Shown piece by piece: positions 57,443 to 63,344 of a stretch of DNA of 64,000 nt. Origin of the DNA: Novosphingobium sp. RL4 (GTDB lineage Bacteria > Pseudomonadota > Alphaproteobacteria > Sphingomonadales > Sphingomonadaceae); the NCBI RefSeq assembly GCF_035658495.1, contig NZ_CP141944.1, forward strand, positions 2,196,001-2,260,000, given 5' to 3'. Position numbers and translations under genes: made by a program. Each line of letters starts with the position of its first letter. Position 1 is the stretch's first letter. The notes under the pieces were generated by a model. That model worked only from the letters and a program-made list of their open reading frames with translations, was not told the DNA's origin and did no database searches.

Positions 57443-57599
57443 TTGCGTCTTTCCGGTTCCGCACATCCTCAGATTTTCCGCCGATCCGTGGAGCCGGATC
57501 GGCGGGCGCGGCCATGTCGATGACACGGCCGCCGCTCGCCGGGCTGCGCCCGGCTCGCCAAATCACGTTTGCGATGTTAAGTAATGATTCACCAATATT

Positions 57600-57616
57600 G
57601 ATCGCGTTGCGCGATC
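57600..57616. promoter_or_regulatory. 17-bp dyad upstream of the FseA-like gene
   Basis: GATCGCG-TTG-CGCGATC is a perfect inverted repeat in a locally AT-rich intergenic region, 96 bases before the activator gene. It has the size of an operator for a small HTH repressor; in ICEMlSym-type elements the activator is under antiactivator and repressor control. No repressor gene is in view. Confidence 0.5.
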
Positions 57617-57712
57617 TACATATCCGATATCAGCAAGTTCAAAATATACCTCAAGTTGTGAACACTTCATCTTTCCGGCGCCGACGGCGCATGGGAAGAA
57701 AGAGGTGACGCC

Positions 57713-58505
57713 ATGCCGAGTTCTGACTGGCGCGCGCTGGCAGCTTATGGACATGCCAAGAGCATTCCTGCCGCCGGCTTCGCTTGGGAATATCTCCGCC
57801 GCGACGACGAGTATCGCCGCGACTTCCATCGCATGAAACGGAAATCCCGTCACGACACCGAGGCCCGGACCGCGTTCTCCAACCGCTGGGGGTTACGATT
57901 TCGCTGCGGACCCGGACCAGCCCGCCGATCGCGCCGCGCTCTTCTGGACGCCCGAACTCCAGCCTGACGCCTTCGAGCTTCGTCCATCAGGCGATCCCCC
58001 CGGCGACTTCGCCATGCCCATCGCACTGCCGGAGCTTCCCGGTCTCGCGGCAAGATCGGCGATCGACAGCGCCTGGCACGGTCTTTGGCGCGGATCGGGC
58101 GGGGAGCATCGCTTCTGGCTCGCGGACCCGCCGCCCGATGGCCGGGCGAACTTCGTCGTCGTTCTGCCGCTCGACGCCCTGTTCGAGCTGCGCGCCGAGG
58201 CGGCACTGCGGTTCTGGCTGGCGCTGGCCGGACGACCGCCCGGCGACCGGCGGCACGACCTTCCGGCCCAGACGCGAGAGCGTCATATCCTGATCCTGCG
58301 CGCGCTCGACGCGAAACTGGCCGGGGCCAGCTATCGCGTCATCGCTGAAGCGCTGCTCGGCTTTCGCGGTCGATCGAAGAACGATTGGGAAGTCAGCCCT
58401 TTGAAGAACAAGGTGCGCCGTCTCGTCGCCGATGGCCTGTTCTACATGCGCGGCGGCTATCGCGAACTGCTCCATTATCCGGTCCGCCTGCCACGCCGCC
58501 GCTGA
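57713..58505 (+). CDS. FseA-like transcriptional activator (DUF6499 + DUF2285), joined by a +1 frameshift
   Basis: Two frames. The first, 57713-57967, reads as DUF6499 (DWRALAAYGHAKSIPAAGFA; FAWEYLRRDDEYRRDFH; RWGLRF) and then garbles. At 57899-57901 a TTT codon is followed by C. Slipping +1 onto TTC continues into frame 3 as FAADPDQPADRAALFWTPEL and on through the DUF2285 domain (RERHILILRALDAKLAGAS; NKVRRLVADGLFYMRGGYR). The joined product has about 263 residues. This is the msi172-msi171 (fseA) layout known from ICEMlSymR7A, where the fusion activates excision genes. GAGGTGA precedes the ATG. ATG 58014 could also start DUF2285 alone. Confidence 0.85.
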
Positions 58506-58544: not shown

Positions 58545-58610
58545 GTGCCGAATCCTGCCCTTCTAATTCCGGCATCGGGTGCCGGATTCATACCCCCCTG
58601 ATTCCGGCAC
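58545..58610. promoter_or_regulatory. Two tandem inverted repeats before the RdfS-like gene
   Basis: Site 1: GTGCCGAATC (58545) with AATTCCGGCAT (58565-58575), 31 bases overall. Site 2: GTGCCGGATTC (58579) with GATTCCGGCAC (58600-58610), 32 bases overall. The sites are spaced 34 bases apart, about three helical turns. They end 85 bases before the HTH gene. A binding site for the FseA-like activator or for an autoregulator is likely. Confidence 0.7.
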
Positions 58611-58695: not shown

Positions 58696-58965
58696 ATGAT
58701 CGACCCGAAGACGGGGTTGCCGCCCCGATTCCTGCGCACGCCCGATGCGGCGCGTTTTCTCGGCATCTCGCTGCGGACGCTGGAGAAGCACCGCACCTAT
58801 GGCACCGGCCCGACCTATCGCAAGATCGGCGGTCGTGTCGTCTATGCGCTGGACGACCTGCAAGCCTGGACGGCGGTCGCCGCCCGCAAATCCACTACCG
58901 ACAAGGACGCAACCCGTGTTTTCCCGGCGCGTCCCCTGACGCCCGCCGAGCGGGGCGCACGCTGA
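58696..58965 (+). CDS. Excisionase/AlpA-like helix-turn-helix protein (RdfS-like)
   Basis: An 89-residue winged-helix protein: RFLRTPDAARFLGISLRTLE, then the recognition and wing part YRKIGGRVVYALDDLQAW. Such proteins act as recombination directionality factors (RdfS in ICEMlSymR7A) or as transcription factors. Directly downstream lies repA (TGA and ATG adjacent, 58963-58968), and the FseA-like activator is upstream, as in that element. The exact role is inferred from this order. Confidence 0.82.
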   Translation: MIDPKTGLPPRFLRTPDAARFLGISLRTLEKHRTYGTGPTYRKIGGRVVYALDDLQAWTAVAARKSTTDKDATRVFPARPLTPAERGAR

Positions 58966-60060
58966 ATGCGCGCCGGTTCATCTCCGGATGCCGGGCGGCG
59001 CTCGCAACGCCTTGTCGGCAGCGAGCGGGCGAGGCTCGACCCCTTCATCGTCGCGACGGGCGATGCGTCGCCCCGCGACCAGCGCGACCTGATGGAGCGG
59101 CCGTTCTTCTCGCTCGCCAAGGCCAAGCGGGTGACGCCGATCCTCTACGAATCCGGCGGCGTCCGCGTCGAGGTCTTCGCCATGCCCGAACATGGCATGG
59201 CGACGATCTGGGACGCCGACGTGCTCATCTGGGCGGCTAGCCAAATCGTCGAGGCCGAGAACCACGGCCTGAAGACATCCCGCTTCCTGCGCTTCACGCC
59301 GTACCAGCTCCTGATGGCCATCGGCCGGGGCACCGGGGCGCGTGAATACAGGCTGCTCAAGGGCGCGTTCGCCCGCCTGCAATCGACCGTCATCGCTACG
59401 ACCATCCGCCAGGGCGAGCATTGGCGTCGGCATCAGTTCTCCTGGATCAACGAATGGGAAGAACTGACCACGCATGACGGCCGCGTCGAGGGCATGGAGT
59501 TCGTGCTGCCCGACTGGTTCTATCGCGGCGTCATCGACCGCTCGCTGGTCCTGACCATCGACCCGGACTATTTCCGGCTGACCGGCGGGATCGAGCGCTG
59601 GCTTTACCGCGTCGCCCGCAAGCACGCCGGCCGGCAGCCGCATGGCTGGCTGTTCGAGGTCGCGCATCTCCACGAGAAGTCTGGCAGCCTGGCACGGCCG
59701 TCCGACTTCGCGCTCGACATCCGACGTATCGTCGCCCGCCAGCCGCTGCCCGGCTATCAACTCAAGATCGCCCGCCAGGGGCGGCGCGAACTGCTGCATA
59801 TCCGGCCCACCATGTTGTCCACAGTGCCTGTGGACGAGGCTGTGGAAACGCTCGTGACTTCGGGCGCAAACGGTATCGGGACTTCGGGCGCAGGACTATC
59901 GGGATTTCGGGCGCACGGACCGCAGTTAAATCTTTGGCCCGAAACGCGGAATCCGACCGCTAACTTAGAGTCTAACCAAGAATCTAACTCTTCTTCTTTG
60001 ACGCGCGCGGGCGCGACCCATGGTGCCGGTGCCGCCAGACGATCGAGGCGGGCGCCATGA
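58966..60060 (+). CDS. Replication initiator RepA-like protein
   Basis: A 364-residue replication initiator of the plasmid RepA (RPA) type. Core segments are RPFFSLAKAKRVTPILYESG, ATIWDADVLIWAASQIV, ENHGLKTSRFLRFTPYQLL, and the conserved WLYRVARKHAG. The C-terminal 100 residues are low complexity. It would open an origin for rolling or theta replication of the element or its circular form. It starts directly at the stop of the HTH gene, and its stop overlaps parA by ATGA. Confidence 0.88.
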   Translation: MRAGSSPDAGRRSQRLVGSERARLDPFIVATGDASPRDQRDLMERPFFSLAKAKRVTPILYESGGVRVEVFAMPEHGMATIWDADVLIWAASQIVEAENHGLKTSRFLRFTPYQLLMAIGRGTGAREYRLLKGAFARLQSTVIATTIRQGEHWRRHQFSWINEWEELTTHDGRVEGMEFVLPDWFYRGVIDRSLVLTIDPDYFRLTGGIERWLYRVARKHAGRQPHGWLFEVAHLHEKSGSLARPSDFALDIRRIVARQPLPGYQLKIARQGRRELLHIRPTMLSTVPVDEAVETLVTSGANGIGTSGAGLSGFRAHGPQLNLWPETRNPTANLESNQESNSSSLTRAGATHGAGAARRSRRAP

Positions 60061-60710
60061 TCGTCGCCCTGCTCAATCAGAAGGGCGGCGTCGGCAAGAC
60101 GACGCTCGCCCTGCATCTCGCCGGCGAATGGGCGAGGACCGGCCACCGCGTCACGCTGATCGATGCCGATCCGCAAGGCTCGGCGCTCGACTGGTCGCAG
60201 CAGCGGGCGCGTGAAGGCCGCCCACGGCTGTTCGGCGTCGTCGGCCTGGCGCGAGATACGTTGCACCGGGAAGCGCCCGAGCTGGCGCGCGATGTCGATC
60301 ATATCATCATCGACGGACCGCCGCGCGTCGCCGGGCTGATGCGCTCGGCGCTGCTCGCCGCCGACCTGGTGCTGATCCCGGTGCAGCCTTCGCCGTTCGA
60401 CGGCTGGGCCTCGGCCGAGATGCTAGAGCTGCTGACCGAGGCGCGCATCTACCGGCCCGAGCTTGCCGCCCGCTTCGTGCTCAATCGCTGTGGCGCGCGC
60501 ACCGTCATCGCCCGTGAGACGGCCGAGACGCTGGCCGATCACGATCCGCCCTTGCTTGCCGCCACCATCGGCCAGCGCGTCGTCTTCGCCGACGCCGCGC
60601 AATCCGGGCGGCTCGCCTCGGAGATCGATGCCGACAGTCCGGCCGCCCGCGAGATCGCCGCGCTCGTGAGCGAGATCGGCCGCCTCGGCATCGGAGGGAT
60701 CGCGCCATGA
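60057..60710 (+). CDS. parA: ParA family partition ATPase
   Basis: A 217-residue Walker-type ATPase. The deviant Walker A is NQKGGVGKTTLALHLA (residues 7-22), followed by DADPQGSALDW and IIDGPPRVAG. It distributes the element to daughter cells with a DNA-binding partner, here probably the small ribbon-helix-helix protein next door. It overlaps repA and the next gene by ATGA each, so the genes form one translational unit. Confidence 0.93.
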   Translation: MIVALLNQKGGVGKTTLALHLAGEWARTGHRVTLIDADPQGSALDWSQQRAREGRPRLFGVVGLARDTLHREAPELARDVDHIIIDGPPRVAGLMRSALLAADLVLIPVQPSPFDGWASAEMLELLTEARIYRPELAARFVLNRCGARTVIARETAETLADHDPPLLAATIGQRVVFADAAQSGRLASEIDADSPAAREIAALVSEIGRLGIGGIAP

Positions 60711-60961
60711 GCGAACGACCTCCGAAACGCGGTTTCGCGGCGCGTCCCGCCGATCCCGAACGCTGGGTCAAAGCCACCGAACCGCCATCGGCCCGCGCAG
60801 GCGACGGCGCGGCGTTCACTGCCCGGCTGACGATCGACATCACACCGGAGCTGCGCGGCCGCATCAAGATCGTCGCTTTCCAGCGCGGCGTCACCGTCAC
60901 CGTCATGCTGCGCGATCTGCTCGCTCACCAATTTCCACCCACCGAAGGAGATCCATCATGA
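60707..60961 (+). CDS. Ribbon-helix-helix partition partner (ParG/ParB-type)
   Basis: An 84-residue protein. A basic N-terminus (PPKRGFAARPADPERWVKA) is followed by a C-terminal ribbon-helix-helix (FTARLTIDITPELRGRIKIV, TVTVMLRDLLAHQFPP). It is the likely centromere-binding partner of the adjacent ParA. It overlaps parA and DUF2840 by ATGA on both sides. Confidence 0.78.
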   Translation: MSERPPKRGFAARPADPERWVKATEPPSARAGDGAAFTARLTIDITPELRGRIKIVAFQRGVTVTVMLRDLLAHQFPPTEGDPS

Positions 60962-61479
60962 CCGGCAACGCGGCTCCCCGCGTGCTCGGCGGCCCCGTGC
61001 CGTCAGCGCTTCCCTCCGACGGCCTGACCCATGTCGAGTTGACGTTCGTCGAGAAGAAGATCGAACACTGGATCAGGTTCGGCCGTGAAGCCCATGAACA
61101 GATCCTCGACCGTCGTCGGCGCATCTTTTCGTTCCGGCCGGACGCCATCTTTGCCTTCGTCCGCTGGGCCTCGAACGACTTCGGCACGATCATCTCGCGC
61201 ATCGACATCGTGCGTGCGGTGCGCCCAAGCGAACCCTATCAGACGCTGCCCTTCGTGCGTCCCGGCGGCGACATCCTGCTCAAGATCGACGGCTGGCCGA
61301 AGGTCGAACAGGTGCTCCGGCATATCGACGCCATCCAGGCGATCGGCATCGATCCGGAGGATGTTTCGCCCGATCACTGGCGCCACGTCCACAACCGGCT
61401 GACCGTGGGTCACGAGCCCCGCGCCTACACCGCTGACCAGCACCGGGCGTTCCTGCTGCGCCGGAGGGCCGAGCCATGA
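60958..61479 (+). CDS. DUF2840 domain protein
   Basis: A 173-residue protein of the DUF2840 family (THVELTFVEKKIEHWIRFGR; AIFAFVRWASNDFGTIISRI; EPYQTLPFVRPGGDILLKI). The function is unknown. It is a fixed companion of traF in conjugative elements of this group. It overlaps both neighbours by ATGA. Confidence 0.9.
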   Translation: MTGNAAPRVLGGPVPSALPSDGLTHVELTFVEKKIEHWIRFGREAHEQILDRRRRIFSFRPDAIFAFVRWASNDFGTIISRIDIVRAVRPSEPYQTLPFVRPGGDILLKIDGWPKVEQVLRHIDAIQAIGIDPEDVSPDHWRHVHNRLTVGHEPRAYTADQHRAFLLRRRAEP

Positions 61480-62033
61480 CCCGCTTCGGCTATGTGATGG
61501 TGACGTATTTTTCGATCATGGGCGTCGCCCTCGCGTCCTTCATTCCGACGCCGACCCGGCTGGTGTGGAACGTCTCCGCCAGCGCACCGATCGGCCTCTA
61601 CGTCATCGATTCGTTCGGCCATCTTCCCGGCGATCTCGCCGTCACCGATCTCGTCGCGGTCGCCCCCCCAAAACCGCTCGCCGAATTCATGGTCCAGCGC
61701 GGCTATATCGGCCGCGGCGTGCCGCTGCTGAAACGCGTCATGGCGCTGCCGGGGCAAGAGGTCTGCCGCGTCCGCCGCACCATCACGGTTGATGGGATCG
61801 AACTCGGCGCGGCGCTCAACCGCGACCGGACGGGCCGCGAACTGCCGATCTGGCAGGGCTGCCGCCGCATCGCCGGTGATGAGATTTTCCTGATGAACCC
61901 GGCTGTCCGCGACAGCCTGGACGGCCGCTATTTCGGCCCGATCCCGGTCAGCTCCATCATCGGCCGCGCGACACCGATCTACACCGACGAGGACGGCGAT
62001 GGCCGCTTCGTCTGGCGCGCCGCGACACGCTGA
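61476..62033 (+). CDS. traF: Conjugative transfer signal peptidase TraF (S26)
   Basis: A 185-residue inner-membrane serine/lysine peptidase. It has an N-terminal transmembrane segment and the Ser motif SASAPIGLYVI (about residue 38-48). The catalytic Lys is in LLKRVMALPGQEVC (about residue 88), and IAGDEIFLMN follows. In conjugation systems of the IncP kind, TraF processes and circularises the pilin TrbC; the trb genes themselves are outside this window. It overlaps DUF2840 by ATGA. Confidence 0.93.
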   Translation: MTRFGYVMVTYFSIMGVALASFIPTPTRLVWNVSASAPIGLYVIDSFGHLPGDLAVTDLVAVAPPKPLAEFMVQRGYIGRGVPLLKRVMALPGQEVCRVRRTITVDGIELGAALNRDRTGRELPIWQGCRRIAGDEIFLMNPAVRDSLDGRYFGPIPVSSIIGRATPIYTDEDGDGRFVWRAATR

Positions 62034-62077: not shown

Positions 62078-62413
62078 ATGCCGCAGATCGGCCAGTTCAC
62101 GCGCGAGACGACGGGCTTCGTCGGGCGCGTCCACACGCTCACCCTCTACCGCGAACTCACCATCGTTCCGGCCGAGCCGTCCGATGCCGAGAATGCTCCG
62201 GACTATCGCATCCACCACGGCGCCGATGAAGGACCAGAGATCGGTGCGGGCTGGAAACGCACCGGCGAGCGCGCGGGCGAATACATCTCGCTGCTGATCG
62301 ACGATCCCGCCTTGCCGCAGCCGATCCGCGCCAATCTGTTCCGCGACGATGACGGCGGGGCCGCCTGGTCGCTGCACTGGACGCGGCCGATCAAGCGCGG
62401 CGAGAAGGACTGA
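62078..62413 (+). CDS. DUF736 family protein (second copy)
   Basis: A 111-residue protein with the DUF736 pattern (MPQIGQFTRETTGFVGRVHT; EGPEIGAGWKRTGERAGEYI). It has diverged strongly from the copy at 55850-56173 and is longer at the C-terminus. CACAGGAGACTTCC precedes the ATG. It lies between traF and the lytic transglycosylase, which is the usual place in this element type. Confidence 0.9.
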   Translation: MPQIGQFTRETTGFVGRVHTLTLYRELTIVPAEPSDAENAPDYRIHHGADEGPEIGAGWKRTGERAGEYISLLIDDPALPQPIRANLFRDDDGGAAWSLHWTRPIKRGEKD

Positions 62414-62627
62414 GGTCATGCGATCGATCATCAGGATCGCGTGGGGGATCGTACGAACAAGCCCCATCCCTTTGTTCGCGAACAAGCCGTCTCATCCCTT
62501 CGTCCCGCTCGAACGCAGGTCGGCCGGCGCGCGCAGCGAAGGTCAAGGGCGATCGAAGATCGGCGCTTCGCGCGAACCCTTGACCGCAGCGAGCACGCTG
62601 GCAGACTGGCGTCTGTGCGGAGACAGA

Positions 62628-63344
62628 ATGTCCGTCCGATCGGCGGTCCTTCTGCTTTCCGCTACGCTCACCGTCGCGATGCCGCTTCCCTGTAAGGCGC
62701 AGTCGGAGCCGGTGCAGCGTCAGACTGCGGTCGATCCCTATGCCGCCGCTATCGCCGAGGCGGCGCAGCGGTTCGGCATACCGGCGGCATGGATCAGGGC
62801 CGTCATGCGCGTCGAAAGCGCCAACGACGTGCGCGCAGTCTCGCCCAAGGGTGCAATGGGCCTGATGCAGATCATGCCCGCGACCTGGGCGGATTTGCGC
62901 GCCCGCCATCGGCTCGGCAGCGATCCCTACGATCCACGCGAAAACATTCTGGCGGGCGCGGCATACTTACACGAACTGCACGACCGCTACGGATCGCCGG
63001 GTTTTCTGGCTGCTTACAATGCCGGTCCTGGCCGTTACGAAGAGCATCTTGCCGGCCGTCCGTTGCCCACTGAGACCCGCGCCTATGTCGCCACGCTCGC
63101 ACCGCAGATCGGCGGCGGCGAGATCACCGGCCCGGTCGCGGTCGCAGCGGCCGATCCGCTGTCGTGGACTCGCGCGCCGCTGTTCGTCACGCAGGCCGAG
63201 CGCACATCGTCTGCCGATTCCGTGCAGCCTAGTGAGCGATCGGGCGACACTCCGGCTGCAACGCTGGTGCGCGATCTCTCCGCGATCATACCGCAGCCGG
63301 GCGGACTGTTTGTTGCCCGAGCGGAAACGGGAAGTCCGCGATGA
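62628..63344 (+). CDS. Lytic transglycosylase (SLT fold), conjugation-associated
   Basis: A 238-residue exported enzyme. The signal peptide is RSAVLLLSATLTVAMPLPC, and the SLT domain follows. The catalytic Glu lies in AVMRVESANDVRAVSPKGAM, followed by GLMQIMPATW and AAYNAGPGRY. It cuts peptidoglycan to allow assembly of the mating channel. The ATG at 62628 gives the signal peptide and has GGAGACAGA upstream; a longer frame to 62418 starts in the DUF736 tail and is rejected. Confidence 0.92.
   Translation: MSVRSAVLLLSATLTVAMPLPCKAQSEPVQRQTAVDPYAAAIAEAAQRFGIPAAWIRAVMRVESANDVRAVSPKGAMGLMQIMPATWADLRARHRLGSDPYDPRENILAGAAYLHELHDRYGSPGFLAAYNAGPGRYEEHLAGRPLPTETRAYVATLAPQIGGGEITGPVAVAAADPLSWTRAPLFVTQAERTSSADSVQPSERSGDTPAATLVRDLSAIIPQPGGLFVARAETGSPR

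Follow-up and report, generated by a model that had tools for sequence, protein, structure and literature searches.

The closest described system is the activator FseA of ICEMlSymR7A from Mesorhizobium japonicum R7A. Its DUF6499 domain is encoded in one frame and its DUF2285 domain in the +1 frame, and its production from msi172-msi171 by +1 frameshifting has been published; according to the available part of the source, such a shift is required in about 61% of 4709 curated homologues (PMC10359603). A conserved shift point with a TGGGGG-coded WGL is described in the same text. We analyzed a locus with the same two-frame arrangement and the same TGGGGG-coded WGL at the shift point in Novosphingobium sp. 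RL4. It lies in a stretch of 64,000 nucleotides, which is referred to as the window. The gene, here called fseA, is composed as follows:

57702..57715, forward strand: ribosome-binding site and start codon of fseA, GAGGTGACGCC-ATG
57713..57967, forward strand: frame-0 ORF (Msi172-like), 84 aa, DUF6499 with AWEYLRRD; the part after F63 is an unshifted tail
57887..57898, forward strand: conserved run TGGGGG-TTA-CGA before the proposed slip site (GGG in 59/81 loci, CGA in 80/81)
57899..57902, forward strand: TTT-C, proposed slip site (frame-0 Phe codon, then C)
57903..58505, forward strand: +1-frame part of fseA (Msi171-like) with the middle region and the DUF2285/RovC_DNA-bd domain, assigned by Pfam and mismatch periodicity

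Starting from the ATG at 57713, frame 0 ends with a stop codon at 57965, while the +1 frame ends at 58503–58505. The first-pass annotation had followed DUF6499 in frame 0 up to RWGLRF, had placed the family continuation in the +1 frame from TTT-C at 57899–57902 onward and had described this frame as open through DUF2285 to 58505, giving a fusion of roughly 263 residues. Coordinates and Pfam matches confirm this description, and joining 57713–57901 to 57903–58505 yields exactly 263 residues and a stop. PF20109, which we take to be DUF6499, matched frame 0 (E 2.3e-21, residues 5–64) and PF10074 matched the +1 frame (E 4.6e-30), both far above the Pfam cut-offs. The frame-0 protein carries AWEYLRRD as its N-terminal AWEFLRRN-like motif. 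The start at 57713 is supported by conservation of GGTGACGCC-ATG, which was found in all 19 nearest loci and in 47 of 79 overall. PF20109 scored higher for the frame-0 ORF than for the joined protein (76.4 versus 72 bits) and its match ends one residue beyond the shift (57899–57904), as if the model had been built from frame-0 readings.

Near relatives were collected by scanning contigs with the joined protein. The best 80 of 147 relatives together with a second fseA copy of the same genome gave 81 aligned loci, which are kin, so that the following counts do not represent independent events. In a frameshift-aware alignment the +1 shift was present at the fseA site in all 81 loci of this set, including one that aligned from residue 49 onward only (L026) and one with a further shift at residue 76 (L019). 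All 81 loci have TTT as the frame-0 codon at the site, with C as the next base in 69 loci and T in 12; over the rest of these genes TTT accounts for 246 of 824 Phe codons. The first-pass annotation had named a lack of TTT-C conservation as the finding that would speak against its reading; TTT-pyrimidine is kept throughout, and this check did not refute the claim. Directly before TTT, CGA is found in 80 of 81 near loci (elsewhere 184 of 2292 Arg codons), and the glycine before the site is encoded by GGG in 59 of 81 (elsewhere 124 of 1298 Gly codons). The G run resembles a Shine-Dalgarno sequence; 6 nt separate its end from TTT, and 3 nt separate it from CGA.

We further compared 770 nt with eight relatives (L005–L012) that are 86.5–93.6% identical. 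Before the site 95 of 153 mismatches fall on third positions of frame 0; after the site 381 of 558 fall on third positions of the +1 frame, and the bin from 57902 onward already follows the +1 frame (37/56). The third-position bias thus moves from frame 0 to the +1 frame at 57902.

A wider survey looked for PF20109 in two partly overlapping samples, one of 240 genomes from the class and one of 299 from the phylum; 13 and 27 genomes, respectively, gave a match. All 55 distinct places, including the window fseA and the second copy, were examined with our own profiles: 36 are split in +1, 12 are encoded in one frame, 1 gave no N-domain match and 6 gave no C-domain match. An in-frame TTT-C shortly after TGGGG is present in 35 of the 36 split loci. 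When considering the 12 fused loci, TGG[GA]G could be located in 10, and only one of these (L124) has an in-frame TTT-C (Fisher p about 9e-8, without correction for relatedness; the 36 split loci comprise 32 distinct 21-mers). GGG encodes the glycine in 21/36 split loci versus 1/10 fused loci. CGA precedes TTT at 15 of 35 survey sites; TTT-C is retained at all of them and is therefore the constant part, and CGA as a constant slip codon is unsupported by the survey. The sole split locus without TTT (L109, genome G267) reads TGT-C after TGGAGG and is either a broken copy or uses an alternative way of shifting. A weak extra match to the DUF2285 profile upstream of fseA was flagged in 17 of 54 survey loci; in L089, L091, L099, L106, L108–L110, L122, L129, L130 and L139 it lies about 150–350 nt before the DUF6499 start.

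These data bear on three other explanations. The DUF6499 ORF and the DUF2285 ORF might encode two separate proteins, the latter of 163 aa from its own start at ATG 58014. Start and stop codons are present in both ORFs, the +1 ORF of the second fseA copy has an ATG (L003 1474) ahead of the shift point, and two proteins have been argued for rihF1b/rihF1a of Azorhizobium (PMC9601964, in the part available). In the window, however, the nearest upstream stop in the +1 frame ends at 57836 and no ATG, GTG or TTG follows until 58014, so that a protein starting there would lack residues 64–100. These are part of the conserved middle block, whose profile (M) matched the window gene with E 3e-33, this gene being in the training set. 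Two proteins would moreover leave unexplained why TTT-C is kept in split loci and not in fused ones, and we consider this explanation quite improbable. A pseudogene created by a recent frameshift, or a mistake in the sequencing, would account for the broken reading frame in the window, but the identical break occurs in the best 80 of 147 relatives and in the second copy, and third-position bias is maintained on both sides of the site. The flip in mismatch positions strongly disfavours an error or a fresh mutation, whose probability we regard as negligible.

The shift itself could also be real without involving tRNA-Phe on UUU, for example if the ribosome slipped one codon earlier on CGA or the G run. 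The joined protein would be identical, only 3 nt separate the end of the G run from CGA, and the frequency of CGA before TTT in the near loci (80/81 versus 184/2292 elsewhere) would suit such a slip. Against it, TTT-C is constant in the survey while CGA occurs at 15 of 35 of these sites, and by reasoning re-pairing of an Arg tRNA on GAU is not to be expected; a slip at the preceding codon seems improbable to us.

We consider it very likely that fseA is decoded by a +1 slip at UUU-C into a 263-residue activator of the rdfS operon, which would promote excision and transfer with the low yield of the slip as a brake. Translation would begin at 57713 with the DUF6499 domain, and at CGA_UUU_CGC a minority of ribosomes would slip by +1, the P-site peptidyl-tRNA-Phe re-pairing from UUU to UUC. 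Reading onward in the +1 frame would complete the DUF6499-DUF2285 activator FseA. This protein would then bind DNA, probably at an inverted-repeat box, and turn on the neighboring rdfS operon, leading to excision and transfer of the element; a low slip yield would keep transfer rare. Ribosomes may be stalled by the TGGGGG run, whose end lies six bases ahead of TTT; the accessible text of PMC10359603 suggests this for the FseA family. UUU_Ynn is reported to be a sequence on which +1 shifts occur with particular ease in bacteria (PMC5009743, in the part available). Domain order and the conservation of both the split and TTT-pyrimidine support an FseA-type gene read with a +1 shift at TTT-C. Further support comes from the fused relatives, which nearly all lack the site, from the flip in the codon position of mismatches, and from the location next to an rdfS-type gene in a conjugative element. 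Folding of the 98 nt that follow the site was predicted to be weaker than for shuffled sequences (z +1.26), so no downstream structural stimulator was seen there and a role of RNA structure is unsupported. Weighing against the main explanation are this lack of a stimulator, the TGT-C of split locus L109, the missing LuxR/LuxI match near the window's fseA and the position of the candidate box, both described below. Transcriptional slippage was set aside on theoretical grounds alone, since the run of T comprises three or four bases.

In the window fseA is located in a conjugative element, directly upstream of an rdfS-type gene. The features around it are:

57599..57617, no strand assigned: candidate operator, a dyad (TGATCG-N7-CGATCT) preceding fseA
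58579..58610, no strand assigned: candidate FseA box, a dyad (GTGCCGG-N18-CCGGCAC) preceding the rdfS-type gene
58696..58965, forward strand: rdfS-type gene (HTH_17), 89 aa, named by domain and gene order
58966..60060, forward strand: replication initiator A (RPA) gene
60057..60710, forward strand: parA-type gene
60958..61479, forward strand: DUF2840 gene
61476..62033, forward strand: traF-type S26 peptidase gene
62078..62413, forward strand: DUF736 gene
62349..63344, forward strand: SLT transglycosylase gene in msi107-like position, start provisional

The order rdfS-type gene, initiator, parA, DUF2840 and traF-type gene fits the arrangement of related elements, for which the available part of PMC8627217 places an initiator and DUF2840 between rdfS and traF. 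Past the window the element continues with an RlxS-like relaxase (DUF3363 E 1e-145; NCBIfam RlxS 667.8 bits, short of the model's cut-off of 850), the C-terminal part of TraG, and homologues of TrbC, VirB3, TrbE, TrbL, VirB8, CagX and TrbI; at the trbJ position of this element no trb family matched. The set of R7A-type ICEs, consisting of rdfS, traF, relaxase, traG and trb genes, is thus present. A large serine recombinase (Resolvase, Recombinase domains) is located at the far end of the element outside the window (L146 12303–14009), and its ORF terminates inside a tRNA-Ser(tga) gene, at the 3’ end of the latter. The left end was not found: the flanks of 3 of 7 other-genome loci with the tRNA-Ser region gave no match in the window, and 14-base words common to the right end of the element and the window are scattered. 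About 22 kb downstream, also outside the window, a lone DUF2285 gene of 99 aa is oriented divergently from a 70-aa HTH gene (the two at L145 17818–18535). The DUF2285 product scores 26.4 bits, which is at the Pfam cut-off, and contains 20 D+E and 13 K+R. The pair is arranged like qseM/qseC, and we refer to the protein as QseM-like.

In its strict form, GATCG-N5-9-CGATC, the candidate operator was found within 160 nt upstream of fseA in 24 of 79 loci and in 13 of the 19 nearest, which are related to each other; its rate in mononucleotide shuffles was 0.0008. The candidate FseA box was compared in 62 of 82 sequences, namely those with an rdfS match. Arms of 7 bases with an 18-base spacer matched at 6/7 or more positions in 61 of the 62 loci and at 7/7 in 44, whereas control spacers of 16, 20 and 22 reached 6/7 in 54, 57 and 56 loci and 7/7 in at most 14. 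At some loci matched changes occur in both arms. If the arms are taken as hexamers, the distance between them is 16 bp, like the geometry of the published FseA box, but the dyad is further from the start of the rdfS-type gene, at about 90 nt compared to 62–67 nt in the published logo, as far as the available description goes. GTGCCGG-N18-CCGGCAC is put forward as a candidate box by its likeness to the published geometry, not to the letters of the R7A box.

The second split fseA is located about 0.56 Mb away (G000:C1:1689415–1690204; L003 1314–2103). It is 35% identical to the first, carries both Pfam domains and shows the same +1 split with TTT-C at 1689610–1689613. Within about 27 kb we found a weak rdfS-like match, DUF736, a DUF3363 relaxase, TraG and TrbB/C/D/E-type genes. 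With these transfer genes nearby, the genome seems to hold two conjugative elements with a frameshift-type fseA. The candidate box was absent before the rdfS-like gene of the second element in a scan of two pieces, and elsewhere there only two-mismatch matches occurred. Genome searches for PF03472 (autoinducer-domain LuxR) and PF00765 (LuxI) returned a single match each, both adjoining the second fseA, and none by the window's fseA. A near-perfect palindrome, ctgtatcctacaggtgtaggatacag, precedes the LuxR gene (L003 338–363) and is perhaps LuxR's own binding site. A further DUF2285 gene, the QseM-like one, was found in the window's element only; the second element gave no further DUF2285 match. 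Since LuxI/LuxR were found in one element only and the QseM-like gene in the other, control in trans is conceivable: the two elements would divide one control circuit and might regulate each other's transfer, with the frameshift as a shared brake. We regard this as an unlikely, speculative scenario.

Among the relatives surveyed, split loci retain TTT-C and fused loci almost all lack it. This natural control makes the minimal signal testable, that is UUU-C alone or together with the TGGGG run and CGA. The case also illustrates again that gene calling splits such activators.

The analogy to ICEMlSymR7A drawn in the first-pass annotation holds for the layout of the gene pair but not for a neighboring TraR/TraI pair, the LuxR/LuxI matches of this genome lying by the second fseA. 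According to the available part of PMC5882170, R7A fseA is under TraR and a tra-box. As here, the R7A element, taken from its published description, has an rdfS-type gene, a traF-type gene and a relaxase alongside fseA. Unlike in R7A, fseA is directly upstream of the rdfS-type gene in the window, and where R7A-type ICEs carry the tyrosine integrase IntS at the end, a large serine recombinase is found at the one end that was located; the other end might still carry a tyrosine integrase.

In Azorhizobium caulinodans ICEAc, rihF1b/rihF1a are called homologous to msi172/msi171; the available part of PMC9601964 holds that no frameshift occurs there, which differs from our reading, and the comparison is one of descriptions, not of DNA. 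RovC of Yersinia (PDB 6xz5) is a distant sequence relative (E 0.014) in which both the AWE-LRR and the DUF2285 stretches align, and it is called distantly related to FseA in the accessible text of PMC10359603. By the same account the RovC structure consists of a single continuous chain, and what RovC activates is a secretion system rather than the transfer of an element. UUU-pyrimidine and the +1 direction are shared with UUU_Ynn of E. coli (PMC5009743) and with UCC_UUU_CGU of influenza PA-X (PMC3498833), as described in the parts available; genes and hosts are unrelated, and the likeness is one of mechanism only. FseA +1 frameshifting being already published, the window gene adds a case and not a new mechanism: it is, judging from its sequence, a well-supported new example of the known FseA frameshift family.
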